From: an uncultured Opitutaceae bacterium
GTDB taxonomy: Bacteria > Verrucomicrobiota > Verrucomicrobiia > Opitutales > Opitutaceae
Length of the DNA: 64,000 nt
NCBI GenBank assembly: GCA_951813085.1
Contig: OX638348.1
Span: 4,736,501 to 4,800,500 of the forward strand
Direction of reading: 5' to 3'
The notes below the pieces were generated by a model that was not told the origin of the DNA, ran no database searches, and worked only from the letters and a program-made list of their open reading frames with translations. The position numbers and the translations under genes are program-made. Position 1 is the stretch's first letter, and each line of letters starts with the position of its first letter. Below, one piece after another: positions 24,714-60,584 of this stretch.

Positions 24714-24795
24714 CTCATCACGTTGCCGCGGAGCGGCATCATGCGAGCGCCTTGTCTCGGCGAAGCTCGGAGAGCGTAGCCGGAATCCTGTTAAT
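24714..24795 (-). repeat. TTAACAGGAT/TGATGAG palindromic unit, locus A left (reverse)
   Basis: Read on the minus strand it begins ATTAACAGGAT and ends CGTGATGAG, with an internal CATGATG and two GC-rich hairpins (CTCCGAGC/GCTTCGCCGAG region and CCGCTCCGCGG). It is head-to-head with the next unit across a 38-base spacer. Confidence 0.75.
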
Positions 24796-24833
24796 AGTGA
24801 ATACAGGATATAGTTGTGAGGGCTTTCTTTTTA

Positions 24834-24899
24834 TTAACAGGATACGTCCCGCTGCCGCAGGACTACATGATGGCTCGCTTCGCGAGCCTGCATGATGAG
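24834..24899 (+). repeat. TTAACAGGAT/CATGATGAG palindromic unit, locus A right (forward)
   Basis: 66 bases: TTAACAGGATACG head, first hairpin and CATGATG, second hairpin (GCTCGCTTCGCGAGC) and the closing CATGATGAG. Same length and plan as the unit at 35928. It lies in the 315-base gap between two convergent genes; apart from these repeats nothing else was seen in that gap. Confidence 0.8.
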
Positions 24900-24972
24900 A
24901 AAAGAGGGGAAAGGGTATTGGTTCACAGGATTTGGCGGAACCCTGTTGATGGGTGGCCGCTTTGGCTGCGGT

Positions 24973-25755
24973 TTAACCGCTCCGCTTTTGCTTGAAGAGC
25001 CAGGTCATGAAGTCGCTCTCCGGATCGCAGCGGTCGCTGCTGGCCTCCGTAATGCCGTTGTCGGCGCCTGTGATGAACTTGCCGGCGATGCCGTGTCCGT
25101 CGCCCTTGAAGGTGGTGAGCTTCATGTTGCCATCCAGCGCTTTCATTTCTCCGAATAGCGTTAGCTGAGGCCCGATGGGGCAGGTGGTGTCCTTGTCTCC
25201 GTGAAAGGCCCAGACGGGTACATCCTTGATGAGCGACGCTTCGATAAAGTCGTTGTCTTGCGTGCGTCCCGTTCCCGCGCACGGTGCGGCAGCGGCGAAA
25301 TAGCCGGAATCGATTTGCAAAATGATGTTGATCCCATGACCGCCCATGGAGTGGCCGAGCACGTAAATGCGGTCCGTATCCACTGATGGGAGACTGGAGA
25401 TGATGGACTTGATGTGATTCAGCTGCGTTTCTCCCCAAAGCTCGGTCGATTGCGGGGCGAGCACGTAGCAAGGAAAATCCATCCGCCTTTGCGGGTCCGC
25501 AAGCTGCGCGTTCCAAGGTCTCAGTTGCTTTGCATTGTCGGTACCGCGCCCGCCCCCGCCGTGGAGCGAAACGATTATGGGGTACTTTTTCGAGGCGTCG
25601 TACCCTGCGGGTTCCATAAGCCGGTAAGGCATGGGGCCGTCGGAGTGAGGCTCGTAGAGATTGACCCAAGCCCGGTCCCGTTGATTGTCTTGAGCGCAGA
25701 GGCTGCTAGCGATTGAAGCGAGCACGAAGGGTATGAGGAATTGGTGGGGTATCAT
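24973..25755 (-). CDS. Exported esterase / prolyl-oligopeptidase-like alpha/beta hydrolase
   Basis: 260 residues from the ATG at 25755; a longer frame extends upstream but the signal peptide (MIPHQFLIPFVLASIASSLC) marks the true start. Motifs are SLHGGGGRG (oxyanion loop), GHSMGG with Ser136, AFHGDKDTTCP carrying the catalytic Asp, and GDGHGIAG with the His. This is the dienelactone/PHB-depolymerase-like set often annotated as a phospholipase/carboxylesterase or acetyl-xylan-type esterase. Last gene of a minus-strand group. Likely periplasmic removal of ester groups from glycans. A large antisense-like frame through the same stretch is only a shadow. Confidence 0.86.
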   Translation of the reverse strand: MIPHQFLIPFVLASIASSLCAQDNQRDRAWVNLYEPHSDGPMPYRLMEPAGYDASKKYPIIVSLHGGGGRGTDNAKQLRPWNAQLADPQRRMDFPCYVLAPQSTELWGETQLNHIKSIISSLPSVDTDRIYVLGHSMGGHGINIILQIDSGYFAAAAPCAGTGRTQDNDFIEASLIKDVPVWAFHGDKDTTCPIGPQLTLFGEMKALDGNMKLTTFKGDGHGIAGKFITGADNGITEASSDRCDPESDFMTWLFKQKRSG

Positions 25756-25871
25756 TGTTTCGAAGATTAGAAGTGAATCCGACTCTAGGTAAACAAAACA
25801 ATTGGAGGATTTCGAGCGTCTAGGGAATTCGAGGCAGGGGCGATTGCGACGCTGCGTTGGTGGGGTCGAAA

Positions 25872-26354
25872 TCAATATCCGTAGCCAATTGAGTAGGGCC
25901 GTGACGAAGCGTTCTGGGCTCTCAAGCCACCCCGGCTTCGGAGCGCTTCCCGCGCTCCCGGGCCTAAGACGCGGTTCATGGCGAGGCAGGGAGCGCAATG
26001 TGTAGCGCCCAGGAAATGGACGCCTTGTATCCTGAATGGAACGCCATAGAGCGCTTTCAAGTCTACGCCGGATACGATGAGGTTGCGACGTGTCACTTCG
26101 GGACCCATCGAATCAGGTAGCGATAGGGCCTTTGCCAGCGCTTGCCACACCTCGAGACTGAAGAAGGTCACATGCCCATTGTAGTCAGGTCGGTGGCGGC
26201 AGAATCGATCGCCCTCGATTCCGGAGTCCGCAATGAGGTTTATGGTTGAATGCGAACGTAGATCGGCGCCGTCTAGATTTCCGCCTCGTTGTCCGAATAC
26301 TTTATGGTCGGGCGCGGTGTATATTCCGTGGATTTCAATAGGGTAGCGGTTCAT
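25872..26354 (-). CDS. MOSC-domain protein
   Basis: 160 residues, a stand-alone MOSC domain (molybdenum cofactor sulfurase C-terminal type). Typical parts are the N-terminal IYTAPDHK, IEGDRFCR, GHVTFFSLEVW, the RRNLIVSGVDL segment, and ATHCAPCLAMNRVLGPGAREALRSRGGLRA with Cys120/Cys123. These domains bind or transfer sulfur in metal-cofactor chemistry; small ones resemble YiiM-like proteins. The start overlaps the stop of the upstream TIM-barrel gene by four bases, so the two are co-translated. No clear link to the neighbours' sugar functions is known. Confidence 0.87.
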   Translation of the reverse strand: MNRYPIEIHGIYTAPDHKVFGQRGGNLDGADLRSHSTINLIADSGIEGDRFCRHRPDYNGHVTFFSLEVWQALAKALSLPDSMGPEVTRRNLIVSGVDLKALYGVPFRIQGVHFLGATHCAPCLAMNRVLGPGAREALRSRGGLRAQNASSRPYSIGYGY

Positions 26355-27217
26355 TTATCCTGCATCAGGGCAGGGATCAATTTCAATCCTTTGAGGTTGT
26401 CGCGGAGGCTCTTGGCGGTGTCTTGGCTCTCAATATGATCGAGAATGCCAATAGGGCCCTTGTATCCAGATTCCATTACCGATTTGATCATTGCCATCTC
26501 GTGACGGCCGGATCCCACAGGGATGATCTTGTTCTCCAAGGTCTTGTGGTTGACGGTGTCCTTGTCCGCCATGCCATTTAAGTTGATGCAAAGGAGGTAA
26601 GGAAGCATTGCGTCAAGGTACTCCTCGAACCGATCCATCTCGTCGTGGCTATGATGGAAATTGTAAACGATGCCTACGTTGTCGCAGCCCTGCCGACGCA
26701 ATTCCTTGCAAACCGCGATCAAGTTGTCCGGGTGGCCTCCCCAGTTGCGGTGATTGTAGAGGCCAAAGGGGGATCCGAGCGCTTTCGCGCGTTTCGCGAA
26801 CGGCAGCATGCTGCGGGCGACGGGCGCCACTCTTTCCGCTTGAGTATCCGCGTTGGGCGAAGGGCAGGTTTTCCAGATTTGCGGCCTTAGGCCATGCTTC
26901 TCAAAAAGGGCGAATGCGTCCTCGTTCTCGTTCCAGAAGGCGAAGTACTCAATACCCTGCTTGCGGCATTCCAGTATCTCCGCTTCGAAATCGGGATTGT
27001 CCGCGTCCCGCCAATTGTAAGCGATGCGCCCGATTCCCATTTCCGAGAGCAACGCAGCTCGTTCGGCCGGACTTCGATTCTCGCTATCCCAACGATGGGC
27101 CACGCACCAGGCGACCAGACTGCTCGTTTTGAAATTCTCGGGGATTTCGGCTAGTGCCGACAGCGCCCATAAAAACGCAGCGCCAACTGCGAGAAGAGGT
27201 CTTGTGAGCGCGTTCAT
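26351..27217 (-). CDS. Exported sugar phosphate isomerase/epimerase-like TIM-barrel protein
   Basis: 288 residues from ATG 27217 (an in-frame TTG 87 bases upstream is less likely). Signal peptide about 1-23 (LLAVGAAFLWALSALA). The rest follows the xylose-isomerase-like TIM barrel (AP endonuclease 2 superfamily): GIGRIAYNWRDADNPDFEAEI, GIEYFAFWNENEDAF, NVGIVYNFHHSHDEMDRF, and LLCINLNGMAD, with several His and Glu residues suitable for metal binding. Exported members are common in Verrucomicrobia and Planctomycetes and their substrate is generally unknown. It follows the PQQ-like propeller gene by 59 bases and is coupled to the MOSC gene. Confidence 0.82.
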   Translation of the reverse strand: MNALTRPLLAVGAAFLWALSALAEIPENFKTSSLVAWCVAHRWDSENRSPAERAALLSEMGIGRIAYNWRDADNPDFEAEILECRKQGIEYFAFWNENEDAFALFEKHGLRPQIWKTCPSPNADTQAERVAPVARSMLPFAKRAKALGSPFGLYNHRNWGGHPDNLIAVCKELRRQGCDNVGIVYNFHHSHDEMDRFEEYLDAMLPYLLCINLNGMADKDTVNHKTLENKIIPVGSGRHEMAMIKSVMESGYKGPIGILDHIESQDTAKSLRDNLKGLKLIPALMQDK

Positions 27218-27276
27218 CGAATTGAAATAGATTGTTGAGAGTTTGCTAAATGCCAAGCATGGAGCCGGCGATCGTT

Positions 27277-28791
27277 CTAAGGCGATTCCTTCTTGAATGC
27301 CCAAAGGCTTTCGAAGGAACGGACATAAAGGGTGTCGTCTACGATTGCGGGCGTGGCGACGATTTCTTCGCCGAGCGTGTTCGTTGAAAGCAATTTGAAC
27401 GCTTCGCTATCTTCGATGACGAAGAGAGATCCGAGGCTAGAAATGATGAGGATCTTGTTTCCGAATTTTACCGGTGATGCGAAGTACTCGCCTTTGACGC
27501 CTGTGCGCATGCCTTCGAAGAACGGCTTCCCAGTTTCTGCATTCAGGCAAGTCACGATTCCTAGGGACTTAACGAGAAAGACGCGATTATCGCTGATAAG
27601 CGGCGACGCCACGTAGGGTAGGTGTTTACGCCATTCCCAAGCGATAACGTCGCTCCCATTGAGCAATCCCTCGCCTCCCGCTTCGATCGTGACCATTACG
27701 TTGCGCCCCTTACCCGCAGGTCGCAGTAGGATATCGAATTCATCGGTTTCCCAAAATTGGTTGCCGTTCCGATCGAGCCATTTGAATACGTCGCGGGCTC
27801 GGCTCGGAGGGAGCTCGGACCGCTCCAGGGCGCCGTCTTCGTTTTGATCGAAGCGCTTGAAGAATAGCGCTGGGTCGGCCAACTCCTCGTTGGTAAACGT
27901 CATCTCGTCATCGAAATGGGCCTCGAGCGTATCGCGACCTCCAGAACTGTTGGCGGACCAGGAAGGGAAATAGAGCCGATCGCTGCCCCCGGTGGGTGTG
28001 GTGCAAGGAAACCCGTTGGTATCGTCTACCTTCCAATTGAGGCGTCCAGACGTTGGATCGAGCGATACCAATGAACTCGTCCCCGCTATGACCAACTCCG
28101 TTCGTATACGATTCTTCCATACAAAGGGAGATGAGTGACTGATTCGATAGCCTAATCGTGGCCGTTTCCAACGTTCCTCGCCCGTTGCGGCATCCAAGGA
28201 AAGAATGCAGGGATCGTCGGTTCCATCGCGAATCAATAGGAGCGCGTCCTCGAAAAGGATAGGGGAGGTTCCCGTTCCCATGCCAGTTCGTGGTCGGCTC
28301 ATTTTCTTTTCCCAGGCAAGCGAGCCATCGAAGTTGAGGGCGACCAATCCATAGTTGCCGAAATAGAAGTAGATGCGTTTCCCGTCAGTGCACGGGGTCG
28401 CTTCCGCTGGACCGGACAGGCGGTGGGTGAAGGATTCCTCGCTTTGCGCGGTAACGCTCCGTTCCCAAAGTACGCTGCCGTCGTGTCGGTCAATCGCCAG
28501 CATGAGACGCTCTTGGCCTCGAAATGCGGCTAGAAATATTCGATCGCCCCAGACGATTGGAGATGCGTTGCCCCCTGGAATGCCGATTCGCCAAAGCAGG
28601 TTGCTATCGGGGCCGAATTCGATCGGGATATCCTGGTCGCCCGCATCCGCTTGTCCTTGGGGACCACGGAACTGCGGCCAGGCATCAGGCGGCAGCGCTT
28701 GGGAAATCGCTGAGAAAGTGAATACGGAATTCAGTATTCCAATACATGCGAGAATGATGCGCGCTGATGCGGTTTTCATTCTCGCTGACAT
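27277..28791 (-). CDS. PQQ-type beta-propeller protein with embedded EF-hands
   Basis: 504 residues, exported (signal about 5-32). Propeller blades of the PQQ/BamB kind are seen: WPQFRGPQG, LLWRIGIPGGNASPIVWGDRIF, DRHDGSVLWERSV, DAATGEERWKRP, NAETGKPFFEGM. Between blades, at roughly residues 315-350, two EF-hand loops occur: DQNEDGALERSEL and DRNGNQFWETDEF. Insertion of EF-hands suggests calcium binding that may control or stabilise the propeller. No cytochrome domain is present, so it is not an obvious quinoprotein dehydrogenase by itself. ATG 28791 or 28779 could be the start. It lies 50 bases after the Tat-exported TIM-barrel gene. Confidence 0.86.
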   Translation of the reverse strand: MSARMKTASARIILACIGILNSVFTFSAISQALPPDAWPQFRGPQGQADAGDQDIPIEFGPDSNLLWRIGIPGGNASPIVWGDRIFLAAFRGQERLMLAIDRHDGSVLWERSVTAQSEESFTHRLSGPAEATPCTDGKRIYFYFGNYGLVALNFDGSLAWEKKMSRPRTGMGTGTSPILFEDALLLIRDGTDDPCILSLDAATGEERWKRPRLGYRISHSSPFVWKNRIRTELVIAGTSSLVSLDPTSGRLNWKVDDTNGFPCTTPTGGSDRLYFPSWSANSSGGRDTLEAHFDDEMTFTNEELADPALFFKRFDQNEDGALERSELPPSRARDVFKWLDRNGNQFWETDEFDILLRPAGKGRNVMVTIEAGGEGLLNGSDVIAWEWRKHLPYVASPLISDNRVFLVKSLGIVTCLNAETGKPFFEGMRTGVKGEYFASPVKFGNKILIISSLGSLFVIEDSEAFKLLSTNTLGEEIVATPAIVDDTLYVRSFESLWAFKKESP

Positions 28792-28841
28792 TCCGGTAAG
28801 GCCGGTGAATCGTTCTTACCGACCCGCTTTATTGCGAGCTG

Positions 28842-29960
28842 TTACGCTTTAAGGCCCAGCCCAATTGACTTGCAGTAGCGGATGCTCTCTTCGATCTCGG
28901 CCTTCTGGTAGTCCTGGGTCGCCATGTCCTTGTTGTGATCGGCTCGATCCGCATTGGGTCCTACAGGCGCTTTCCAGGGCTCGCGTGGAGAGCCTTGGCG
29001 GGCCCACTTAATGTAGTTGGAAAGCGTGGACGCTTTCATGTCGGGAAATAGTTTCATGAAGCCGTCTTCCAGAAACGGGATCTCGCGATTGAATCCAGAA
29101 ATCGTCTCAATGTGAACGGGCACGTTCGGACAAAGCTGAGCGAAGCGCTTGAAGTAGGCTTCCCAGTCAACATCCCCTTTGCCCATGGCTGTCCATTGGA
29201 CCGTGGTTCCTTTCTCCGATGTCCAGATGGCTGAGTCTCGCAGGCTCGTCGTAAGCGCGTAGGGCCCCATGATTTCCAGATTTTCCAACGGATCCTCTAA
29301 CGTCCACGAGGCATTGCCCGCATCAAGATTGGCGCCCATGTAGGGAATGCCCCCTGCTTCCGCGATCAAGGTGACGACTTCGTGGGCTTGCATATCGCCG
29401 GCGTGGTTTTCGACAGCGATCTTAACCCCTGCATCCAAGGCTTGGGTACGGCAGGCGCGGCATACTTTGGCCGTGTCCTTAATTCGCGCCATGATTCCGC
29501 CTTCGGTGGCCCGGTCGTCGCGATTGCCGAGAATGACGCGGATGACGGGCGATCCCAGGGCTTCCGCGACGCGGATAGAAAGCCGCAGGTGCTCCTCCGC
29601 CGTTCCCCACGTGTCCTTGAAGGTCGTTGAAGTGGGGCAGATGCTCCAGGTGCCGACGTGAATATCCATTCCCTTGTCTGCCGCCTTCTTGCGGACATCG
29701 CGCAAGTAAGGCATGTCCAAGCTCTTGAAGTGATCGAGGTCCGACATGAAGAGGGAGTCGATACCGAGCCCTTCCGCGTATTCTAGATGATCCTCGACCA
29801 TCCAGTTCATGGCCCGCACGGCGAAGTTGTCGTAGCCGAGCTTGATGCCCATTTTCTTGTGGTGGGCGGCGAGACCTGCCAGCGGACTTGCCGCGGCGGC
29901 GATTCCTCCAGCCATTACGGTTTTCACGAATTCTCGACGGGGAGTAGATTGGGTAGGCAT
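28842..29960 (-). CDS. Tat-exported sugar phosphate isomerase/epimerase-family protein
   Basis: 372 residues from ATG 29960. RREFVKTVMAGGIAAAA is a twin-arginine signal (Arg8/Arg9 region). The rest is a xylose-isomerase-like TIM barrel: KLGYDNFAVRAMNW, GIDSLFMSDLDHF, VIRVILGNRDDR, VKIAVENHAGDMQ, YMGANLDAGNASW and VHIETISGF, whose Glu, Asp and His residues can bind a divalent metal. Family members isomerise, epimerise or, in newer cases, deglycosylate via 3-keto sugars. A frame extending to 30809 on this strand overlaps the transpeptidase gene and is spurious. First gene of the minus-strand operon; divergent from the transpeptidase gene. Confidence 0.86.
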   Translation of the reverse strand: MPTQSTPRREFVKTVMAGGIAAAASPLAGLAAHHKKMGIKLGYDNFAVRAMNWMVEDHLEYAEGLGIDSLFMSDLDHFKSLDMPYLRDVRKKAADKGMDIHVGTWSICPTSTTFKDTWGTAEEHLRLSIRVAEALGSPVIRVILGNRDDRATEGGIMARIKDTAKVCRACRTQALDAGVKIAVENHAGDMQAHEVVTLIAEAGGIPYMGANLDAGNASWTLEDPLENLEIMGPYALTTSLRDSAIWTSEKGTTVQWTAMGKGDVDWEAYFKRFAQLCPNVPVHIETISGFNREIPFLEDGFMKLFPDMKASTLSNYIKWARQGSPREPWKAPVGPNADRADHNKDMATQDYQKAEIEESIRYCKSIGLGLKA

Positions 29961-30104
29961 AGGGCGTTTCCTTTTATTGATTGGACGCCTATTTGTTGGT
30001 CGTACACGGCGCGTATCGCAACCCTTTTTAACGTAAGTCGCTCGGTTTGAGCGGCCGACGAAATACATTATTGCTATCCGTCGACTGGCCCGTAGAGTGG
30101 CTCG

Positions 30105-32036
30105 ATGAACCCGTTTTCGCTGCGACTCGGCCCGTTTTCGCTGCGACTCGGCCCGTTTTCGCTGCGACTCGGCCCCCTTCTTGCGCGATATCGGTTCCTG
30201 TTCTCCGTTTTGCTCACGATGCTGCCCTTCCTTCCCGCTACCGATATTTCCGCTACTGAGAGGCCTCCCTTGCATGGGCGCCATTGGATGGCGATTACTG
30301 GCAAGCCCTTGGCGGCCACCGCAGGAGCGCGAATGCTCGAGAATGGAGGCAATGCGGTGGACGCTGCCTGCGCCATGCTGGCCGCGGTTTCGACCTTGCA
30401 TGACTCGCTGGGTTGGGGTGGGGAAACGCAGGCTCTGATTTACAATCCCCATACTGGCAAAGTCGTTGGGATAAACGCGCTGGGAGTGGCTCCGACCGGC
30501 GCAACGGCGGAATTCTTCAAGTCGATGAATCTCAAGTATCCGCCAGAAGAGGGACCGCTGGCCGCGGTCACTCCGGGAACGCCCGGTGGCTTGATGGTGA
30601 TGCTGGCGGAATTTGGCACGATGTCGCTCAAGGAGGTTCTGGCGCCCGCCATGCAGCTGGCGGAGGGATATCCCATCGAAACTCAGTTGGTTCTCGCCAT
30701 TGAGAAGAACCAGGATCTGCTGCGGCAGTGGCCCTATTCGAAAGCCCTGTTCTTTCCGCATGAAGGCCGGCGTCCTGAATTCCCCAAGCCTGGCGAGCTC
30801 TTTAGGCAACCTGATCTTTTGGATACGCTACAAAAGTTGGCGGATGCGGAAGCCGATGCGCTCAGCGCCGGGCAAGATCGCAAGCAAGCGATCCTATCGG
30901 CTTACGACCGGTTTTACCGGGGCGACATCGCTACTGAAATCGTTCGCAGCGCTCGGGAGCAAGGGGGCTTGTTCACGATGGAGGATTTGGCGAATTGGGA
31001 GGTGAAGATCGAGGAACCGGTGATAACGAACTACAAGGGAATCGATGTCTGCAAGTTGACCTCCTGGGTTCAGGGACCGGCCATGCTGCAATGCTTGAAC
31101 ATGCTCGAGGACCTCGACCTGAAGAGCATGGGCTACAACAGCGCCCGCTATATCCATGCGCTGTACCAGGTTATGAACCTCGCTTTCGCGGATCGAGACT
31201 TCTACTACGGCGATCCCTACTTCGCCCCGCGCGAACCGCTCGAGGGCTTGCTTTCGCGCGAATACGGCCGCGATCGGATGCGCTTGATAAACTGGAACCG
31301 GAACAATCCAGACATTCGCCCAGGCGACCCCTATCCCTACCAGGGCGAGGTAAATCCCTTCTCGGATCTGCTCGAGAAATGGTCCAATCTAAAGAGGCCA
31401 GTTGAGCCAGAAGAAATCGCCATGAGTCGTGAGGACTTGAATGAAGCGTTTCGTCGTGGCACAACGTCGATACAAGCCGCTGGCGAAGACGGATGGGCGG
31501 TATCCATCACGCCGAGCGGCGGCTGGGTACCTGCGGTGATCGCGGGCAAGACTGGCGTGTCCTTGAGTCAGCGGATGCAGAGCTTCGTGCTAGATCCGGC
31601 TGAAAATCCTTTCAATGTGGTAGAGCCGGGCAAGCGGCCTCGGGCTACGCTCACGCCGAGCATCGCGCTCAAGGACGGCAAGCCCTTGCTTTGCTTCAGC
31701 GTTCAAGGAGGCGATACGCAGGATCAGAATTTGCTGCAGTTCTTTCTCAATGTCGTCGAATTCGGGATGACGGTTCAGGAAGCCTGCGAAGCGGCGAACA
31801 TTACAAGCGGCCAAATGCGCAGCTCGTTTGGGAGGCACGTCGCGGAGCCGGGATTGCTGACCTTGGTCGATGAAGTGCCGTCCTGGGTACGAAAGGAACT
31901 GGGCCAGATGGGCTACGAAATGACGTTCGTAAAGAAGAACTCAGGTCCCATTACGGCGATTCAGTTCGATCATGCCCACGGCACTCTCTGGGGGGGCGCG
32001 AGCAACCACGGTGAAGATCACGGCATCGCTTGGTAA
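30105..32036 (+). CDS. Gamma-glutamyltranspeptidase family protein
   Basis: 643 residues. The N-terminus carries three FSLRLGP heptads, then a hydrophobic signal (FLFSVLLTMLPFLPA). Mature sequence begins near HWMAITGKPLAATAGARMLENGGNAVDAA, followed by SLGWGGETQALIYNP, GPLAAVTPGTPGGL and LTPSIALKDGKP, all GGT landmarks. The nucleophile region is RGTTSIQA with Thr near residue 453, where the proenzyme would cut itself into large and small subunits. It hydrolyses gamma-glutamyl bonds (glutathione, poly-gamma-glutamate) in the periplasm. No partners in the neighbourhood explain it. ATG 30105 is the only good start; no clear ribosome-binding site is visible. Confidence 0.88.
   Translation: MNPFSLRLGPFSLRLGPFSLRLGPLLARYRFLFSVLLTMLPFLPATDISATERPPLHGRHWMAITGKPLAATAGARMLENGGNAVDAACAMLAAVSTLHDSLGWGGETQALIYNPHTGKVVGINALGVAPTGATAEFFKSMNLKYPPEEGPLAAVTPGTPGGLMVMLAEFGTMSLKEVLAPAMQLAEGYPIETQLVLAIEKNQDLLRQWPYSKALFFPHEGRRPEFPKPGELFRQPDLLDTLQKLADAEADALSAGQDRKQAILSAYDRFYRGDIATEIVRSAREQGGLFTMEDLANWEVKIEEPVITNYKGIDVCKLTSWVQGPAMLQCLNMLEDLDLKSMGYNSARYIHALYQVMNLAFADRDFYYGDPYFAPREPLEGLLSREYGRDRMRLINWNRNNPDIRPGDPYPYQGEVNPFSDLLEKWSNLKRPVEPEEIAMSREDLNEAFRRGTTSIQAAGEDGWAVSITPSGGWVPAVIAGKTGVSLSQRMQSFVLDPAENPFNVVEPGKRPRATLTPSIALKDGKPLLCFSVQGGDTQDQNLLQFFLNVVEFGMTVQEACEAANITSGQMRSSFGRHVAEPGLLTLVDEVPSWVRKELGQMGYEMTFVKKNSGPITAIQFDHAHGTLWGGASNHGEDHGIAW
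30110..30172 (+). repeat. 21-base tandem repeat, three copies, at the transpeptidase N-terminus
   Basis: Three perfect head-to-tail copies of a 21-base unit starting CCCGTTTTCGC and ending TGCGACTCGG, at 30110, 30131 and 30152, directly after the start codon. Each copy adds seven residues (FSLRLGP), so copy number can change without breaking the frame. Confidence 0.85.
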
Positions 32037-32139
32037 GCGCGTTTTACCGAGAAGCGATATTTGCCCAATCGGCGCATCGCAGAGCTTGTAATTGAGGCTC
32101 ATGTAGGAGATTATTGAAAGGCCCGAACCTGCGTAACCT

Positions 32140-33341: not shown

Positions 33342-33418
33342 CGAAGAAGACATGTCTCTTGTTCCCGCCATCATAAGAGATGAAATAAAGGCGACTACTA
33401 AGGAGGGGGAATTTTAAG

Positions 33419-33447
33419 TTGACATATATCCGTAACGGATATACAGT
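33419..33447 (+). promoter_or_regulatory. Promoter with a palindromic operator in its spacer, upstream of padR
   Basis: TTGACA at 33419-33424, a 17-base spacer, then TACAGT at 33442-33447 form a good sigma-70 type promoter. The spacer is almost entirely a perfect palindrome, TATATCCGT-A-ACGGATATA at 33425-33443. A repressor on this site would block both elements. PadR regulators commonly bind such palindromes in their own promoters. Confidence 0.72.
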
Positions 33448-33515
33448 CGTCGCATCGCTAAAAAAATACAGTCAATGGGCCGCTGACTCCGGCGGCGCTT
33501 CACATACTGCTAGCC

Positions 33516-33806: not shown

Positions 33807-33809
33807 ACG

Positions 33810-34571: not shown

Positions 34572-34585
34572 ATTCGATTCATATC

Positions 34586-35927: not shown

Positions 35928-35993
35928 TTAACAGGATACGTCCCGCTTTGACGGGACTGCATGATGTCTCGCTTCGCGATCCTGCATGATGAG
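35928..35993 (+). repeat. TTAACAGGAT/CATGATGAG palindromic unit, locus B left (forward)
   Basis: 66 bases with head TTAACAGGATACG, hairpin CGTCCCGC/CGGGACTG, CATGATG, hairpin CTCGCTTCGCGA, and CATGATGAG. The other unit of the pair follows after 48 bases. It lies in a 347-base gap between two minus-strand genes. Confidence 0.82.
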
Positions 35994-36041: not shown

Positions 36042-36109
36042 CTCATCATGTAGCTGCGCAGCAGCATCACGTGAGCGATCCCGCTAAGCGGGAGAGCGCA
36101 TCCTGTTAA
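36042..36109 (-). repeat. TTAACAGGAT/CATGATGAG palindromic unit, locus B right (reverse)
   Basis: 68 bases, read on the minus strand from TTAACAGGATGCG through hairpins CTCCCGCTTAGCGGGA and GCTGCTGCGCAGC to CATGATGAG. The middle copy of CATGATG is changed to CGTGATG. Tails of the two units face each other. The sulfatase stop is 20 bases further on. Confidence 0.8.
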
Positions 36110-36129: not shown

Positions 36130-37593
36130 CTAGTTGACTGCCTGAGGCAGGTTCAGGTCATTGTCCCGAACGTCCCTGAGCTTCTCCGCTAGTTGCGCTT
36201 TGAATCGATCGACGGTTGAAGCGTATTCAGGATTCAATGCTAAATTCGTATACTGCCCTAGGTCCTTGTTAATGTCGAATAGCTCGATGCCGCCGGATGC
36301 GTCTTCATTGTACTGAATGTAGGCCCAATCGTCAGTGCGCAGGAGAAAGCCTTTGCGCATGGGAGCGACGCTGAAGACCGTGTCGCGAACCGTGTATTCA
36401 GGATCGTCGAACATTGGGGAAATGTCTTTTCCTTGAAGCCGATCCTGCCTGGGGAGTCCGCACAGGCTGGACAAAGTGGGGTAGAGGTCCAGCAGCTCGG
36501 TGAGAGAGTGGCATACGGCGGGCTCCTTACCCGGAACGCGAATGATAAGCGGAACTCCGGACGATTCATCCAGCAAGCTCACCTTGGCCCAGAAATCATG
36601 CTCTCCGAGATGATAGCCGTGGTCGCTGGTGAAGATCACGATGGTATTGTCTTCCTGGCCTGATCGTTCGAGCGCATCGAGCACCTTGCCCACTTGCCTA
36701 TCCAGAAACGCCACTGATGCATAGTATCCGCCAACGGCCTTCTTTTGGCGGCGTATGTCCATCTTCATGTTCTCGCTGGTCTTGTAATTGATTCCTGGGG
36801 TCGGAATGTCGTCCCAGTCGCCTTCCAGCTTGGGCGGCAATACCATGGAGTCGTAGGGCAAGTAGTCCTCGTAGTATTCCCGTGGAGCGACAAAGGGCAC
36901 ATGCGGGCGCACGAATCCGACTCCGATGAAAAAGGGCTCTTCCCTTTTCGTTTCGATCAGTTCAACCGCCTTGGCCGCTGTCTTGCCATCGGAGTGGACA
37001 GAGTCGTCGCCGTCCGCTTCTACCACGACGAAGGTGTTGCCTCCCATGACAGGCTTGGTTCCGTCCGGATTCCCCTCCAAGGTTTCGCCGGTTCCGGGGG
37101 CTTTCCATTCGGGCCCGGGACTGTTGAATCGCTCGGTCCAAGAAGCGGCGTCATCAGCGCCATGGCCCCCTTCCTCGATGCCGGTGGGTACGCCCATATG
37201 GAATATCTTGCTGACGCGGGCGGCGTAATAGCCGTTGTTCTTGAAGTGCTCCGACCACATGGCCCGGTCGCCGATCTGCGGACGTGGATTCTTGTACCCC
37301 AAGGAACCCGTGGCGTGTGGATAGTAGCCCGACATGAATGACGCGCGAGAGGGTCCGCAGTAGGTGCCTTGGCAATAGCCCCGCGTAAACAGCGTTCCCG
37401 TCTCGGCGAGTCGGTCGATGTTGGGCGTCTTGCAAACGGTGTTTCCGTAGCAGGACAAGGCAGTCGGCGTAAGGTCGTCGGATATGATGAAAAGGACGTT
37501 GTAGCGCTGGGCATTTTCTCCGCTCGATGCCGCAAACGCGACAAGGACGAGTACGGCGCAAAGAAGGGATCGAGCTTGGAAGAGAGGTTTCAT
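36130..37593 (-). CDS. Iduronate-2-sulfatase-like sulfatase
   Basis: 487 residues, signal peptide about 1-24 (LLCAVLVLVAFAASSG). Landmarks are NVLFIISDDLTPTALSCYG with the Asp pair, the active-site Cys79 in YCGPSRASFMSGYYPHATG, FFIGVGFVRPHVPFVAP, and TIVIFTSDHGYHLGEHDFW. The C-terminal part is complete (ELFDINKDLGQYTNLA). The pattern LxGSL after the active site and the overall length match bacterial relatives of iduronate-2-sulfatase. It is divergent from a sialidase-like gene, which suggests both act on the same sulfated glycan. It would work in the periplasm after formylglycine formation. Confidence 0.92.
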   Translation of the reverse strand: MKPLFQARSLLCAVLVLVAFAASSGENAQRYNVLFIISDDLTPTALSCYGNTVCKTPNIDRLAETGTLFTRGYCQGTYCGPSRASFMSGYYPHATGSLGYKNPRPQIGDRAMWSEHFKNNGYYAARVSKIFHMGVPTGIEEGGHGADDAASWTERFNSPGPEWKAPGTGETLEGNPDGTKPVMGGNTFVVVEADGDDSVHSDGKTAAKAVELIETKREEPFFIGVGFVRPHVPFVAPREYYEDYLPYDSMVLPPKLEGDWDDIPTPGINYKTSENMKMDIRRQKKAVGGYYASVAFLDRQVGKVLDALERSGQEDNTIVIFTSDHGYHLGEHDFWAKVSLLDESSGVPLIIRVPGKEPAVCHSLTELLDLYPTLSSLCGLPRQDRLQGKDISPMFDDPEYTVRDTVFSVAPMRKGFLLRTDDWAYIQYNEDASGGIELFDINKDLGQYTNLALNPEYASTVDRFKAQLAEKLRDVRDNDLNLPQAVN

Positions 37594-50104: not shown

Positions 50105-50166
50105 CCGCAGGGAAAGCGGGAAGGGTCAGCAGAATCCTTTTCGAGAAACGCTTGCAGGATTCGGAT

Positions 50167-50698: not shown

Positions 50699-50873
50699 AG
50701 GGATCAAGGGGTTGAGATAGAAAGGCTGTAATTTGATGTGAGAATTGAATCGGCGCAAGCCGGCTTTCGAGGCGTCACATTCCAGGCGATTTCTCGATTG
50801 CTTTATCAGGTTGAGTCAGTCCCTGTCTGCTTATTGATTTATCTGGTAACGCAAGCTGAAGAGTTAGCGTTCA

Positions 50874-52430: not shown

Positions 52431-52473
52431 TCGCTTTTCGGCTCGGGCTTGAGAAATCGGGATCGGTAGCTTC

Positions 52474-54643: not shown

Positions 54644-54885
54644 TCTGCGAGGTTGTAGCGAGGACTTGGAGAGACGAGCGAAATACAGCGTCGAGGATGT
54701 CCTACTTTATTGGTGGAAGGGCTTTTTTGGACAGGCCGACCGAGGCTTGAGTCGACTGAAAAACACGTTTCATTCAATATTGTTCGCGATCCCTTGCGAC
54801 GGGTCCAATTTTTTCCTCGCGACTGTTATTCGAGTCGTGCAGGTAGGATAATACGCCACTTCCTCAATCGTAACTGTATGCCCCA

Positions 54886-57327
54886 ATGAACTATCTCGCA
54901 CGAATCATCTGGCCCGCAATCGGGCTCTCTTTAGGGCATTCTTTCGCTGCAGCTCAGTCGGTGGATTCCTCGACCCGCTTGGATCACCCTAGCATCGCGA
55001 GCATCTCGCTTTTCGCGGAGAATCCGGACATCGTAACTCCGGTGGGGATCACGGTTGCGCCGGATGGACGCGTATTCGTTCAGGAAAATCATACTCACCA
55101 ACGTTCCCCTCGGTATAGCGGTCCAGAGAAGGACCGCATCCTCGTTTTTGAAGATACCGATGGCGACGGCGTTGCGGATAAACGTTCCGTGTTCTACGAG
55201 GGCCACGTATTTAGCACGGATCTCCTATTCGGTCCCGATGGGCATTTGTACGTGGCCACGCGGTGGTTTGTGGGTCGCTTCCCCAATGCCACCACACTGG
55301 CCAAGGCGGAAGGCGACCCGGAAATTTTGGTGACCTGCGAAACCGAGGGCGAATATCCGCACAACGGCGTGGGCGGATTGACCATCGATCCCGCGAATCC
55401 GGATTGGCTGGCTTTTGGCTTTGGCGAAAATTTGGGAGTGGACTATACCTTCGTCGGAAGCGACGGGATCGCTCTGTCCGGAGGTGGCGAAGGGGGGTCT
55501 ACCTACCGATGCCGCACGGACGGTAGCCAACTGGAGCGGCTTTCGACCGGGCACTGGAATGCATTCGGCATGGCCTTCGATTTGAAGGGCAACCTATTCT
55601 CAACGGACAACGATCCCGCCAGTACGCCGCCCAATCGGCTCCTTCATATCGCTCCCGGCGCCGACTTTGGATACGAATTTCGCTACGGACGAACCGGAAG
55701 CCATCCCATGGTCACCTGGACGGGCGAGAATCCGGGTACGCTGGGAATGGTTACCGGCATCGGCGAGGCCGCTTGCGGTATCGTCCCTTTCGGTCCCGGG
55801 CAAATGCTCATCGCCTCTTGGGGCGATAACAAAGTCTATCTGCACACCCTAGTTCCGAATGGGCGGAGCTTCGCGGCGACGCGAGAGAATTTTATTTCCG
55901 GGACGAATGCGTTTCGGCCGGTTCATTTCGCGTACACTCAAGATGCAAGCGCGCTTTATATTTCAGACTGGGTCGCATCGGACTACCCTGTCCACGGCAA
56001 TGGCAGGATTTGGAAGGTCACTTTGAAGCGACCTGCGGACTTGGAGCCCAGGCCTCGAGATCCCCTTCCAGAGATGACCTATCGAGAGGCGCTGAAGAAC
56101 CTGGGAAGCTCCGATCCCTATGTCCGCAATGAAGCGGTCCGCGTGGTTGCTCGCGATCCTAAAGAAGACTGGCGAACGTTTGACGATCCTGTTGCGCGAT
56201 CCCACTATGCGGTGGCTTTGCGACGCTCTGGGTCAGTGGACGCTGCGAAACAGATACCCGATCTATTGAAGGATTCCAGCGAACAAGTTAGCTATGTCGC
56301 CATAAAGTGGATATCAGACGATATATTGACGAGCTATCGTGCACAACTACTGGATCAGCTGGATCGGGAAGATCTCAGCCGCAAATTGATGCTGGCAATA
56401 ATGGCCGCCCAGCAGCGCCTGGATGGAATGCGCCCGATGGACCTGCCGACGCCCGCTCAATTGCAGCCCATTCTCGATGACGCCTCGAAGCCCGCCCGGC
56501 TTAGAGCGCTGGCGCTTAGTCTTTTGCCCGAGGACGCCATTGCTATGGAGACGCTTTTAGCGCTAACGCGCGCCGCCGCTCCAGAGATTCGCCTAGAAGC
56601 CGTCCGCAATCTCGCCAGCTCAGGCAATCCGGACGCGAGGAGCGCCCTTGCTTCGATAGCGAAGAATTCCAGTCAATCGCCGACAATACGAGCTGAGGCG
56701 ATTCTCGGATTAGCTGCGGATCCGCAAGCGGAGCAAGCGCTGCTCAAGCAGCTCAGCCAAGATACGAACGCGATCGTAGCGGCGGAGGCCATGCGGGCGC
56801 TTTCAGGAGGAGGCCTGGCGTCGCGAAATCTAGAGCCTAAGCCCAGCTCAATGGATGCATCGCAATGGGTAACGATGCTCAAGGAAGTAGGGAGTACTCA
56901 AAATACGGATACAGGACGACGGATTTTCTTTCATCCCACTCTAGCTACCTGCGCGAACTGCCATCAAATAGAAGGTCGAGGTCTCAGGGTAGGGCCGGAC
57001 CTCACTTCGATCCATCGCCAAGCTGGAGTCGATTCCCAATGGCTGCTCACCCACATCCTCAATCCATCGGACTCGATTGCCCCGCAATACCAGCCTTGGC
57101 AGATTGTTATGAAGGGCGGTGAAACGAAATTGGGATACGTCCTCCGCAAAGGCGGAACCAGGGAAACGTATATCGGAATCGACGGTGAAGAATTCAGCGT
57201 TCCAAAAACTCAAATCGAACGAACCGAAGAGCTATCTATCACCTTGATGCCGCCCGGGCTGCTGGATCCTCTTCAACCCACAGAGATACGAGACTTGATT
57301 GCGTATCTATTGCATGACGAAAAATAG
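54886..57327 (+). CDS. PVC-type propeller, HEAT and cytochrome c fusion protein
   Basis: 813 residues. Signal peptide at about 1-23 (IGLSLGHSFAAAQ). Residues about 30-390 form a sorbosone-dehydrogenase-like propeller (GITVAPDGRVFVQENHTHQ, LFGPDGHLYVATRWFVG, GDNKVYLHTLVP, ISDWVASDYPVHGNGRIWKV). Residues about 420-660 are HEAT-like helical repeats (ALTRAAAPEIRLEAVRNLAS, IRAEAILGLAADP). The C-terminal part has the haem motif CANCH at about residue 690, followed by GRGLRVGPDLTSI. This is the putative membrane-bound dehydrogenase/haem-binding architecture typical of Planctomycetes and Verrucomicrobia. Electron transfer in the periplasm during sugar oxidation is the usual proposal. The sulfatase gene starts 36 bases downstream. 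Confidence 0.88.
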   Translation: MNYLARIIWPAIGLSLGHSFAAAQSVDSSTRLDHPSIASISLFAENPDIVTPVGITVAPDGRVFVQENHTHQRSPRYSGPEKDRILVFEDTDGDGVADKRSVFYEGHVFSTDLLFGPDGHLYVATRWFVGRFPNATTLAKAEGDPEILVTCETEGEYPHNGVGGLTIDPANPDWLAFGFGENLGVDYTFVGSDGIALSGGGEGGSTYRCRTDGSQLERLSTGHWNAFGMAFDLKGNLFSTDNDPASTPPNRLLHIAPGADFGYEFRYGRTGSHPMVTWTGENPGTLGMVTGIGEAACGIVPFGPGQMLIASWGDNKVYLHTLVPNGRSFAATRENFISGTNAFRPVHFAYTQDASALYISDWVASDYPVHGNGRIWKVTLKRPADLEPRPRDPLPEMTYREALKNLGSSDPYVRNEAVRVVARDPKEDWRTFDDPVARSHYAVALRRSGSVDAAKQIPDLLKDSSEQVSYVAIKWISDDILTSYRAQLLDQLDREDLSRKLMLAIMAAQQRLDGMRPMDLPTPAQLQPILDDASKPARLRALALSLLPEDAIAMETLLALTRAAAPEIRLEAVRNLASSGNPDARSALASIAKNSSQSPTIRAEAILGLAADPQAEQALLKQLSQDTNAIVAAEAMRALSGGGLASRNLEPKPSSMDASQWVTMLKEVGSTQNTDTGRRIFFHPTLATCANCHQIEGRGLRVGPDLTSIHRQAGVDSQWLLTHILNPSDSIAPQYQPWQIVMKGGETKLGYVLRKGGTRETYIGIDGEEFSVPKTQIERTEELSITLMPPGLLDPLQPTEIRDLIAYLLHDEK

Positions 57328-57363
57328 CCGATCACCGCAGAAATTGGTCCCGCCAAATAATTC

Positions 57364-58941
57364 ATGAAACACACACGATTGAAACTCATTGTCTCCTTAG
57401 CTCTGATCGGCGCATCGGCCCAAGCCTCGATCACGCCCGTACCGGATTTGATCGAGCCGCAAAAGATTGAAAATGCGAAGCCGAGAAATGTGGTATTCAT
57501 CTTGTCGGACGATCATCGATACGACGCCATGAGCTTTATGGGGCATCAATTTGCCAGGACGCCTCGCATGGATTCCATGGCAGCCAATGGCGTGCACCTT
57601 AAGAACGCCTTCGTCACGACTTCATTGTGCTCACCGAGCCGGGCCTCGATTCTTACGGGGCTATATACCTTTCGTCACCGCGTGATAGACAATCAACGCG
57701 CGGTACCGGAGGGCACTCAGTTCTTTTCGCAGTACCTGCAAAAGGCCGGATACAAAACCGCCTTCGTGGGCAAGTGGCACATGGGCCATGCGAATGACGG
57801 CCCCCGTCCGGGCTTCGATTACTGGGTCAGCTTCAAAGGACAAGGCAAGTACTTCCCGCCCACGCCAGACTACACCATCAACGACAATGGCCGGCGCGTA
57901 AAGCAGGACGGATACATCACGACGTTGTTGACTCGCTACGCAGTCGATTTTCTCGAGCAGCAAAAAGGGAAAGAGGAACCCTTCATGCTCTACCTGTCGC
58001 ACAAGGCGGTCCATGACCCCTTTACGCCGGAAGACAAGCACCGCGGCAAGCTCGCCAATACGCCCTTCGTCAAGCCGGACAGCGCCGCGCCAGTGGACGG
58101 CAACGCCTTGAATCGGCCTCGTTGGCTGCTCGACCAACGCAACAGCTGGCATGGCATGGACTTCGCATTGCATTCGACCGAAGGCATGGAGCGATTCTAC
58201 AAGAACTACTGCGAGGCCCTTTGCTCGGTGGACGACAGCGTCGGAGCGGTTCTGGATCAATTGAAGCGTATGGGAATTTACGACGAGACCCTGGTCATCT
58301 ACATGGGCGACAACGGCTTCATGTTCGGCGAGCATGGATTGTTCGACAAGCGCGTGGCCTACGAAACTTCCAGTCGGGTGCCCATGCTGATGCAATGCCC
58401 AGACCTCTTCGAAGGAGGGACCGTGGTCGACGAAGTGGTTGCTAACATCGACATCGCTCCGACCATCATGGAGGCGATGGGGGTGCGCAAACCGCCTCAT
58501 ATGGATGGCCAAAGTTTCATCCCTTTGGCCCAAGGAAAGAGCATTCCCTGGCGAGACTATTTTCTATACGTGTACTACTGGGAACAGAATTACCCGCAGA
58601 CCCCGACCCATTTTTCGCTTCGAGGCGACCGTTTTAAATTCACGACTTACTACGGGCTTTGGGATACGGACGAACTGTTCGATATACAGTCCGATCCGAT
58701 GGAGCAGAACAACCTGTTTCACGATTCCGAATACGCGGATGTAAGAAAGCGCATGCAAGATCGGCTCTACGTTATGATGGACGAGCTGGGCGGCATGGAC
58801 ATCCCTATGAATCCGCCACGCGGGAATCAGCAGAACAAGCGCCTCCGCGGCAACGCCTACCATGGACGCAGCGGCGAGCAGGCCGCCGATTTCCCCGAAG
58901 CCATGGTTGTCGAGGAACCGCTTAGGAAAATCCTGAAATAA
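57364..58941 (+). CDS. Sulfatase, N-acetylglucosamine-6-sulfatase-like
   Basis: 525 residues, signal peptide about 1-21 (LIVSLALIGASAQAS). NVVFILSDDHRYDAMSFMGH has the metal Asp pair; the active site is Cys89 in TSLCSPSRASILTGLYTFRH, canonical C-x-P-x-R. Other landmarks are AFVGKWHMGH, FMLYLSHKAVHDPFTP, TLVIYMGDNGFMFGEHG and the C-terminal ELFDIQSDPMEQNNLF. The RH-R-V-x-N run after the active site is typical of N-acetylglucosamine-6-sulfatase-type enzymes. It follows the propeller-cytochrome gene and should share its transcript. Acts in the periplasm on sulfated glycans; precise sugar unknown. Confidence 0.92.
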   Translation: MKHTRLKLIVSLALIGASAQASITPVPDLIEPQKIENAKPRNVVFILSDDHRYDAMSFMGHQFARTPRMDSMAANGVHLKNAFVTTSLCSPSRASILTGLYTFRHRVIDNQRAVPEGTQFFSQYLQKAGYKTAFVGKWHMGHANDGPRPGFDYWVSFKGQGKYFPPTPDYTINDNGRRVKQDGYITTLLTRYAVDFLEQQKGKEEPFMLYLSHKAVHDPFTPEDKHRGKLANTPFVKPDSAAPVDGNALNRPRWLLDQRNSWHGMDFALHSTEGMERFYKNYCEALCSVDDSVGAVLDQLKRMGIYDETLVIYMGDNGFMFGEHGLFDKRVAYETSSRVPMLMQCPDLFEGGTVVDEVVANIDIAPTIMEAMGVRKPPHMDGQSFIPLAQGKSIPWRDYFLYVYYWEQNYPQTPTHFSLRGDRFKFTTYYGLWDTDELFDIQSDPMEQNNLFHDSEYADVRKRMQDRLYVMMDELGGMDIPMNPPRGNQQNKRLRGNAYHGRSGEQAADFPEAMVVEEPLRKILK

Positions 58942-58959
58942 GTACCCAGCCCGAGAACA

Positions 58960-58990
58960 GGTAGCGGCCGGTCCTTGGAATTCCGCCACC
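58960..58990. repeat. Second hairpin repeat family, copy 3
   Basis: Begins GGTAGCGGCCGGTCC and ends TTCCGCCACC. It matches copy 1 (24681) in head, tail and position: after a gene stop and 8 bases before a reverse unit of the TTAACAGGAT family. Confidence 0.55.
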
Positions 58991-58998
58991 CTAATTCC

Positions 58999-59063
58999 CA
59001 TCATGCAGGATCGCGATGCGAGCCATCATGTAGTCCCGCGCTAGCGGGACGTATCCTGTTTAA
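58999..59063 (-). repeat. TTAACAGGAT/CATGATG palindromic unit, locus C left (reverse)
   Basis: On the minus strand: TTAAACAGGATACG head (one extra A), hairpin GTCCCGCTAGCGCGGGAC, CATGATG, hairpin GCTCGCATCGCGATCC, CATGATG. Head-to-head with the next unit over 39 bases, nearly the same spacing as at locus A (38). Confidence 0.8.
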
Positions 59064-59102
59064 TAAAATTCAATGACTCTCCTCAGTAGCGCTGTTTATT
59101 TG

Positions 59103-59160
59103 TTAACAGGATGCGCTCGTGCCTCGCTCGCATGATGCCCTTGCAGGGTTGCATGATGAG
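59103..59160 (+). repeat. TTAACAGGAT/CATGATGAG palindromic unit, locus C right (forward)
   Basis: 58 bases: TTAACAGGATGCG, a GC-rich stem ending CGCTCG, CATGATG, a second stem CCCTTGCAGGG, and GCATGATGAG. The rest of the 505-base gap to the ThuA gene (59161-59446) holds one 7-base-stem hairpin TTTCAGC/GCTGAAA at 59203-59219 and no recognised gene. Confidence 0.8.
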
Positions 59161-59446
59161 AATGTTTTGGGGGCTTTGCCTGCCGACTAGTTTCGAACCT
59201 ATTTTCAGCTCTGCTGAAACCCATTTCCCGATTCCACTTAGTGGGAGAGGGAGCTAGCGATCGAAGTGAGCGATGTTTCAAATCGTTTAACGGAAATCCC
59301 GCCCATGCCAGATTGTGTTCGTTGCCCGAACAGTGGTGGCCCAACTCGCGTCGTCTTACGCATTGCGGTAGCGAATTCACTCGCAACGATATTGAAGATA
59401 GGTTTTGGGATAGGGATCTACAAAAACACCTTACCCTATATTGATC

Positions 59447-60439
59447 ATGCCTCGATATGTAGCTGTTTTCATCGCGACCCTGTATTTAGCTGTTTCCGCC
59501 GTGGCCAACGATACGCCCAAAGTCGTCTTCCTTACTGGCGACGAGGAGTACCGATCGGAAGAGTCGATGCCCATGCTGGCCAAGATTCTCCGTCGTGATT
59601 TTGGATTCGACGTATCGGTCGGCTTTTCTCTGGGACCCGATGGGACGATCGACCCGAACGCGGCCGACTCCCTGACGGGAACGGAAGCCCTGGCCGACGC
59701 GGACCTGATGGTGCTATTCCTGCGCTTTCGGCGACCCGACGAGGAAGGCTTCCAGCGAATCCTCGCTTATCTTGATTCCGGTAAGCCAGTGGTGGCGTTT
59801 CGAACGTCTACCCATGCCTTCCGATTTACGCAAGATTCGCCGCATGCTGGATGGGGCTATCAAGACGACCCCACGTTTGTCCACAGCTTCGCAGGGGGCG
59901 AACTGACGCGCGAGCTTGTAGGGCAAAAATGGATCACGCATCACGGCCACTTCGACGATGGAAAGAATCCACTGACCCGTGTGAGCTTGGATGCTTCCGC
60001 TGAGGGCCATCCTATATTGAGGGGAGTGAAAACCTTCGACGCGTATTCATGGCTCTATCACGTTGAAGGCGGCGGCGACTCCGTGGCAGGAGACCCTCAG
60101 TTTCTCCTCAATGGAAAATCGCTGCGCTCCAATAAGGAAGAGCGAGGACAGCTCAACCAGTACCCGTTGTCCAATCCAGTGGCTTGGACAAAGACGCAAA
60201 ATGGGGGCTTCAACCATGCTCGCGTTTTCACAACAACCCTGGGTCATCCTTACGACTTTAAAATCCCGATGATGCGTCGCCTCGCTCTGCAAGGCATCCT
60301 CTGGGCAATGTCGCGAGAGGATCTGATACCTGAAACAGGAGTCGAAACGGATACGGTTGGAACGTATGAACCTAACAACTCAGGCTTCGGTGAAACGTAT
60401 AAAGCCGGCCTAAAACCAGAGGATCTAATAAGCGAGTAG
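59447..60439 (+). CDS. ThuA-like domain protein, exported
   Basis: 330 residues from ATG 59447 (TTG 59441 is possible). Signal peptide about 1-19 ([16 protein letters not shown]). A ThuA-like (class I glutamine amidotransferase-like) fold follows: [66 protein letters not shown], and a C-terminal [13 protein letters not shown] that is diagnostic of the family. The nucleophile Cys of true amidotransferases is absent, as usual for ThuA. These proteins are regularly found beside PVC propeller-cytochrome proteins; the next gene is one. Their function in glucoside oxidation is proposed but not proven. Confidence 0.86.
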
Positions 60440-60454
60440 TGCAGACTTTTTTGT

Positions 60455-60495
60455 CTAACAGGATGCGCTCTCCCGCTAAGCGGCGACATGATGAG
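60455..60495 (+). repeat. Short palindromic unit, locus D left (forward)
   Basis: 41 bases with head CTAACAGGATGCG, one hairpin CTCCCGCTAAGCGGCG and CATGATGAG. It is the minimal one-hairpin form. The paired unit lies 48 bases away, exactly the spacing at locus B. Confidence 0.78.
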
Positions 60496-60543
60496 ATTTT
60501 GAATTGTCAATGAACTATACTTGAAACTCTATTTATCGCTATC

Positions 60544-60584
60544 CTCATCATGCAGTCCCGCGCTAGCGGGACGTATCCTGTTAA
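60544..60584 (-). repeat. Short palindromic unit, locus D right (reverse)
   Basis: 41 bases. On the minus strand it runs from TTAACAGGATACG through the perfect stem GTCCCGC TAGC GCGGGAC to CATGATGAG. It ends 40 bases before the next gene's ATG, so the repeat is part of that gene's leader. A start codon inside it (60550) is in frame with the gene but is not the real start. Confidence 0.82.

Follow-up and report, generated by a model that had tools for sequence, protein, structure and literature searches.

Paired hairpin repeats in an Opitutaceae genome as candidate ends of GxxExxY mini-elements

Repeat units in the window

The DNA analysed here, a 64,000-nucleotide stretch that we call the window, spans positions 4736501-4800500 of the single-contig genome of an uncultured Opitutaceae bacterium (G000; 4852771 bases). 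It contains eight copies of a hairpin-bearing repeat unit, arranged in pairs at four loci between genes, which may well be the ends of small elements built around a gene of the GxxExxY family. An earlier note made from the sequence had reported eight units at four loci, in opposite orientations and sharing their end motifs, and both a fresh reading and a covariance model confirm this, with positions agreeing within a few bases. At E <= 1 the model has exactly eight matches in the window, four of which are among its 18 training rows (drawn from G000, G004 and G007, none from G009) and so match by construction. All units bear the shared ends, with one mismatch in four of the 16 motifs: two heads (TAAACAGGAT at 59053 and CTAACAGGAT at 60455) and two tails (CGTGATGAG at 24714 and CATGATGGG at 58997).

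At the first locus, a minus-strand unit at 24714-24794, with its head TTAACAGGAT at the right end, is paired with a plus-strand two-stem unit at 24834-24899 that runs from TTAACAGGAT to CATGATGAG, so that the heads lie inside. The second locus has its heads outside, with two-stem units at 35928-35993 (plus) and 36042-36109 (minus), the latter directly after a sulfatase gene (36130-37593, minus strand). Heads again lie inside at the third locus, between a two-stem unit at 58997-59062 (minus) and a unit at 59103-59160 (plus). The fourth comprises one-stem units at 60455-60495 (plus) and 60544-60584 (minus; model match 60532-60584), a heads-outside pair of 130 bp that can be read as a single insertion, 60455-60584, in an intergene of 185 bp. 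The other seven units are model matches at the coordinates given.

Read forward, a unit is a series of short direct repeats, ACAGGAT, ACATGAT and ACATGATGAG, with a hairpin between successive copies; by this reading one-stem units have two copies and two-stem units three. In reverse it reads CTCATCATG, stem, ATCATG, stem, CGTATCCTGTTAA. The stem sequences vary and their pairing is kept, which indicates that compensatory changes maintain the stems: 37 double-change cells were counted against 14.0 expected (none of 500 shuffles as high), and sliding the partners by 1-3 columns lowers stem pairing from 75% to 35-44%. Support is good for stem 1, with 89% of its cells paired, and lower for stem 2 in the same alignment (62%). 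A common stem reads CCCT-GNA-AGGG, with all four bases found at N. In single-stranded DNA, triloops of the GNA type are very stable, which hints at a hairpin of DNA rather than RNA.

Distribution, pair geometry and empty sites

Within the window the head, allowing up to one mismatch, is found nine times where 2.56 would be expected (a number reached in 1 of 100 shuffles), and the tail by itself is not unusual (22 against 17.0; 8 of 100 shuffles). Across the whole of G000, TTAACAGGAT has 56 copies against 4 for the pattern read backwards, and TAACAGGAT-N20-50-CATGATG has 29 against 0. The genome-wide family that the earlier note proposed to look for is therefore present, with 64 model matches in G000, many-copy hairpin repeats in inverted pairs as in REPINs, the paired forms of repetitive extragenic palindromic (REP) sequences. 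The eleven genomes of the genus hold 104 (G009), 64 (G000), 26, 18, 15, 14, 8, 4, 2, 2 and 0 matches, all lower bounds from 150 scored candidates per genome, with weak matches not checked singly. The exact unit pattern was present in three genomes out of 141, each of them from this genus. A contig scan for that pattern gave at least 106 stretches; among the nine read closely, neighbouring motifs were present only in those from G004 and G007, and the remainder were judged chance singles from their titles alone.

The units tend to be paired in one particular way. In G000, G004, G007 and G009 we counted 31 pairs of units no more than 200 bp apart, and 27 of these have TTAACAGGAT at both outer ends, with a spacer of 9-20 bp in 15 of the 27; three of the remaining four have their heads inside and one is direct. 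This count draws on a partial model list plus three weaker units, omitting G001, G006, G008, G010 and the unpaired rows of G002 and G003; with a pair chosen by hand from each of G002 and G003 it becomes 29 of 33. Two of the three heads-inside pairs are the window loci at 24.7 and 59 kb, whose units may therefore simply be neighbours that arrived independently and not the mobile form. The claim that units always occur in inverted pairs holds for the window and fails beyond it: 66 of 138 placed units, from an incomplete list, have a neighbour within 200 bp. At G000:1604838-1604870 (L170) we observed a perfect 33-bp palindrome of two TTAACAGGAT heads back to back, without any of the inner repeats, which may be what a deletion or excision left of a unit pair.

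The pair at 60.5 kb behaves as one piece. Its flanks, a ThuA-like gene before and another gene after, are conserved in G001, G006, G008 and G010, and in all four genomes the pair is missing: with start codons assumed, the intergene measures 38 bp in G001 and G008 and 46 bp in G010 and G006, and is free of units. A short, gene-less pair with inverted ends that is absent from four of four orthologous sites is what a miniature inverted-repeat transposable element (MITE) would look like. At the 36-kb locus, no unit was found in the 420 bp after any of four sulfatase orthologues (82-86% identity; G004, G007, G002 and G001), whose downstream genes differ.

Could the units simply be intergenic terminators or mRNA-stability hairpins, spread by local duplication? 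They do place GC-rich stems between genes, and one local duplication in G000 carries two units (1265023 and 1265388). We consider this highly improbable, given the four empty intergenes at 60.5 kb, the four sulfatase orthologues followed by no unit, the range of 0 to 104 matches within one genus, and the lack of any Rfam family at the gathering threshold within the window. Conserved terminators at the same sites in related genomes, which the earlier note named as the finding that would undo its proposal, were thus not what the orthologous regions held, and we rejected the conserved terminator on these empty or unit-free sites.

A second repeat family (TTCGAACCTATTTTCAGC..GAGCGATGTT) occurs at 21 places in 261 kb of G000, among them 59191-59277 in the window (boundaries by eye), downstream of the unit at 59103-59160. 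The resulting composite, a unit followed after a spacer by the second family, spans 59103-59277 and recurs at L007, L013, L015, L019, L020, L022 and L034.

A GxxExxY gene between inverted units

The units also enclose a gene. Thirty-eight kilobases before the window, at G000:4698099-4698645 (547 bp), two inverted units surround a single open reading frame (ORF; 4698209-4698580) that matches TIGR04256, the GxxExxY family, at E=1.9e-41; the element lies antisense to both neighbouring genes, and the orthologous locus of G009 has the same arrangement of unit, GxxExxY gene and inverted unit. The gene-less pairs thus have a larger, gene-bearing counterpart with the same ends, as MITEs have.

Matches to PF13366 are present in 10 of the 11 genus genomes, seven of them in G000. 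The GxxExxY genes whose flanks are of the unit type or otherwise rich in hairpins (L196, L197, L206, L212, L213, L214, L216 and L219) form one clade with support of 99/93, and the three genomes that hold this clade, G000, G009 and G007, are those with the most unit matches (64, 104 and 26). Several of these genes, L196, L213 and L216 among them, lie between hairpin-rich flanks that are direct rather than inverted copies, and by eye each such flank forms an inverted pair in its own right. As a separate observation, nine genus genomes have a GxxExxY gene or its remnant immediately upstream of an alaS-like gene (L189, L190, L193, L195, L202, L204, L209, L217 and L220); several are broken, and this is an old insertion in decay.

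Among 39 GxxExxY sequences, E27, D66 and K78 are invariant and E76 is present in at least 90% (numbering of alignment A2). All 39 match PF13366, the profile with which they had been found, and judged by this family profile and by the E, D and ExK residues, the protein is PD-(D/E)XK-like. In a profile search against the PDB only endonuclease I matched (3cae and 1m0d), over the catalytic part and not significantly (E=0.75 and 0.83), and a single-sequence structure search returned no structure of a GxxExxY protein.

Terminal repeats of GxxExxY loci across Verrucomicrobiota

As a general rule, GxxExxY genes sit between terminal inverted repeats. The genes are found in 161 of 288 sampled Verrucomicrobiota genomes, and when the flanks of each locus were compared with 100 dinucleotide shuffles, terminal inverted repeats were significant (p<=0.02) at 99 of 111 loci (80 of 89 in the phylum set and 19 of 22 in the genus), with a median outer length of 474 bp; the same test was passed by none of 22 control genes and none of 120 random windows. 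The 89 phylum loci are the best-scoring part of the phylum search, which favours intact genes, and 12 of the 34 genus loci were excluded as broken or truncated (L188, L191, L194, L195, L198, L202-L204, L208, L209, L221 and L222). In a cross-pair control, which shares repeat types between loci, 7 of 33 genus loci lay above the 99th percentile; for 29 phylum loci, 22 exceeded the 95th and 12 the 99th. Short direct repeats, with a mode of 9 nt, exceed 95% of shuffles in 43 of 88 left arms.

The words repeated at these termini include ACCACGAAA, ACCACAGAG, ACCGCCAAG, CACGGAT, ACAGGAT and ACATGAT. Two of them are the words of the unit itself: ACAGGAT recurs at L300, L314, L324, L343 and L347, and ACATGAT at L373. 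Repeat types, among them CCACGAAA, ACAGGAT and CGCCAAG, follow the protein. The Mantel correlation between the two is r=0.36 for pairs below 60% identity, the largest of 2000 null values being 0.13; the nearest protein relative falls in the same repeat class for 33 of 61 loci, against 21% when shuffled; and the protein tree requires 28 changes of repeat label, against 60.9 shuffled. The classes are regular expressions of our own making, with 22 of 99 rows labelled 'other' and three classes clustered hardly or not at all. That repeat type follows protein shows that gene and ends travel together.

Target duplications were sought around 85 GxxExxY elements, a set without the gene-less pairs: the best match came to 2.79 bases, with 2.44 for comparison, and this weak excess may be due to A+T-rich flanks. 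Outside the phylum, three of eight plasmid-borne GxxExxY loci pass the inverted-repeat test (two in Bacteroidota, one in Sphingomonas) and five fail; in L382, L383 and L385, from these groups, a plasmid GxxExxY gene with terminal inverted repeats stands between co-directional host genes (radA, ade, fabD-fabG). Searches of viral contigs and phages with single GxxExxY queries returned no relative. In the literature searched, whose coverage stops short of subscription journals, the term GxxExxY is scarcely present, TIGR04256 and PDDEXK_3 have no match, and no title on intervening sequences, four-helix proteins, intergenic elements or Verrucomicrobiota repeats deals with such an element class. One paper remarks on a GxxExxY gene near a reverse transcriptase (PMC8934634).

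The question of a RAYT partner

The earlier note likened the pairs to REPINs moved by a REP-associated tyrosine transposase (RAYT) and saw no transposase in the window. The latter observation stands: G000 has five matches to PF01797, the Y1 transposase, one of them a fragment with a stop, and all lie elsewhere in the genome. The comparison itself survives in part, in that the family is genome-wide, has an inverted-pair form, is missing from an orthologous site in four of four relatives and varies between 0 and 104 model matches within the genus; it is not supported for the RAYT partner. Y1 searches of the genus gave 34 rows, 30 of which were examined as loci (two of the other four, G007:C177 and G007:C139, came without a locus, and two are second halves of examined genes), and no intact RAYT with adjoining units was among those 30. 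The sole examined Y1 locus with head and tail in the unit arrangement is L034, a broken RAYT remnant about 80 bp from a unit whose head and tail motifs are both degenerate. The flanked RAYT gene that the earlier note had expected was not found beyond this remnant; what lies between units instead is GxxExxY. A RAYT as partner is therefore not supported by the loci examined.

An ordinary REP/REPIN family might still have been moved by a RAYT, a Y1 HUH transposase, whose gene is now missing or which works from another location, with the GxxExxY gene a passenger caught between two units. The inverted pairs with short spacers, the five PF01797 matches of G000 and the remnant at L034 would suit such a history, as would the tag before the first stem, which in 44 units read in reverse is GTAG in 13, GCAG in 9, GCTG in 6 and GTTG in 5. 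REP families with degenerate tags such as GYAG are published, and Opitutus terrae is described as rich in GTAG repeats (PMC3733652); a GTAG-type tag consequently neither proves nor excludes a REP origin, and because degenerate tags are on record we raised the odds of this explanation. We nevertheless hold it to be unlikely, since no intact RAYT adjoins units at the loci examined, the intact Y1-transposase genes L032 and L033 each carry their own hairpin repeats, and the direct-repeat logic, with the same words, recurs around GxxExxY genes in other genera. The repeats of L032 and L033 (G000:957197 and 2068151) flank both sides of the genes (GTAGCTTCGACTGGTAGTCGAAG and TAGCTCAGCGCTTTAGCCTGAGC), and at L030 a direct repeat with AAAAGGGGTCAG lies upstream of a Y1-transposase gene.

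Four-helix elements and intervening sequences

Loci of a second protein type, the four-helix bundle (PF05635), show a comparable layout: 19 of 21 in the genus pass the same terminal inverted-repeat test, with repeats 7 nt long by eye. Both types occur in the ATP synthase operon, compared in ten genomes (G002 gives no call). Between atpA and atpG, G000 (L224, G000:3571500-3574800) and G009 have a GxxExxY gene in gaps of 460 and 459 bp; G003, G007 and G001 have a four-helix match just upstream of atpG, that of G001 being weak and below the curated cut-off; and in G004, G005, G006, G008 and G010 the gap is 42-53 bp with no gene inserted.

An intervening sequence (IVS) of 428 nt in the Coxiella 23S rRNA gene is described in PMC4990558: its terminal repeats measure 28 bp, it has heptameric direct repeats, it contains an S23 ORF, and RNase III cuts it. 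It fits the description of our four-helix elements. One could imagine that all of these are IVS-like RNA elements whose ends matter as stems for RNase III to cut in the RNA, with both kinds of ORF, GxxExxY and four-helix, as passengers and the route of spread left unspecified, a scenario to which the Coxiella layout and its cutting lend substance, as do the four-helix genes with the same layout inside the ATP synthase operon. We think it quite improbable: the unit-bearing element of G000, antisense to both its neighbours, does not require expression within a host transcript, and the repeat type tracks the protein. The units and the GxxExxY element are located between protein genes and not in the 23S rRNA gene, and the ORF that the units enclose is GxxExxY (TIGR04256), not four-helix/S23.

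The units as candidate ends of GxxExxY mini-elements

We favour the reading that the units are the hairpin-bearing ends of GxxExxY mini-elements and that the pairs are gene-less, REPIN-like derivatives, with GxxExxY as the inferred mover, and we place its probability at about 0.58. It builds on what is directly observed: the repeat family, the covariation of its stems, the preferred geometry, the empty orthologous site, the enclosed gene and the rule that terminal inverted repeats surround GxxExxY genes. The unit words shared with other GxxExxY loci, the agreement of repeat type with protein and the high unit counts in the three genomes with the hairpin clade also speak for it. Each unit consists of a short direct repeat (ACAGGAT, ACATGAT, ACATGATGAG) in two or three copies, successive copies being separated by a GC-rich hairpin. 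The gene-bearing form consists of a unit, the GxxExxY gene and an inverted unit; the common gene-less form consists of two facing units with TTAACAGGAT outside and, in the manner of a REPIN or MITE, is either there as a whole or missing. The GxxExxY protein might recognise the direct repeats, or the cruciform that they could form, and cut there, and such cutting could spread the protein's own element and also, acting in trans, the pairs that lack a gene.

Several points weigh against this reading. For this exact repeat family the link to the gene is one insertion in two genomes; seven other gene loci of the hairpin-rich kind are flanked largely in direct, not inverted, orientation; and a sister relationship between the hairpin clade and the ACAGGAT clade is unsupported on the tree. 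Direct repeats stood out in only the 43 of 88 arms given above. Since gene and ends are inherited together, common descent alone would lead one to expect repeat type to match protein, and the match is no proof of recognition. Four-helix elements share the design and do so without a nuclease, so that a mover shared with them in trans is possible. Movement was not observed, and neither target duplication, tested on the 85 GxxExxY elements, nor excision was demonstrated.

A broader proposal, to which we give slightly less than even odds, is that GxxExxY proteins move a class of bacterial mobile element not recognised before, in which a PD-(D/E)XK nuclease of about 125 amino acids would act on its own terminal arrays of direct repeats or hairpins, with gene-less copies that behave like REPINs. 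Intergenic four-helix/S23 elements and rRNA IVSs would then form a sister class, and much of the anonymous intergenic repeat content of bacteria, of the ACCACAGAG, ACCACGAAA and GTGAATGGTGAAT types, would mark where such elements end. Tying GxxExxY and intergenic four-helix genes to defined terminal repeats points to a role for both, and it suggests where widespread intergenic repeats that lack an explanation, and perhaps 23S rRNA IVSs, may come from. GxxExxY and its repeats make a concrete candidate enzyme-substrate pair that is open to testing and, if the proposal is true, REPIN-like repeat populations need not depend on RAYTs.

Comparison with known systems

The closest parallel is the REPIN/REPtron system of REP doublets and a RAYT gene (PMC3116915, PMC3733652). 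Shared with it are short, mostly intergenic hairpin repeats in inverted pairs, a copy number that differs between relatives and a gene found between copies; the GxxExxY genes between direct-oriented, hairpin-rich flanks (L196, L213 and L216) likewise recall RAYT genes between REPs. The units differ in having no adjoining RAYT among the loci examined, a variable tag before the stem, an anatomy of direct repeats with hairpins between them, and an enclosed gene that is GxxExxY.

With the 23S rRNA IVSs (PMC4990558), the elements have in common a length of a few hundred bases, terminal inverted repeats made of short direct repeats, and one small ORF of unclear function. By contrast, the GxxExxY class has another protein, repeats of about 9 nt and a non-rRNA site, and the window family has hairpins between its repeats and many gene-less copies. 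For the protein only, the non-significant profile match over the catalytic part is shared with T7-type endonuclease I, a junction resolvase. Like MITEs, finally, the pairs are gene-less pieces of about 130 bp with matching inverted ends, present or absent as a whole; they are assigned to no known transposase family or target duplication, and their candidate parent encodes a nuclease-like protein.

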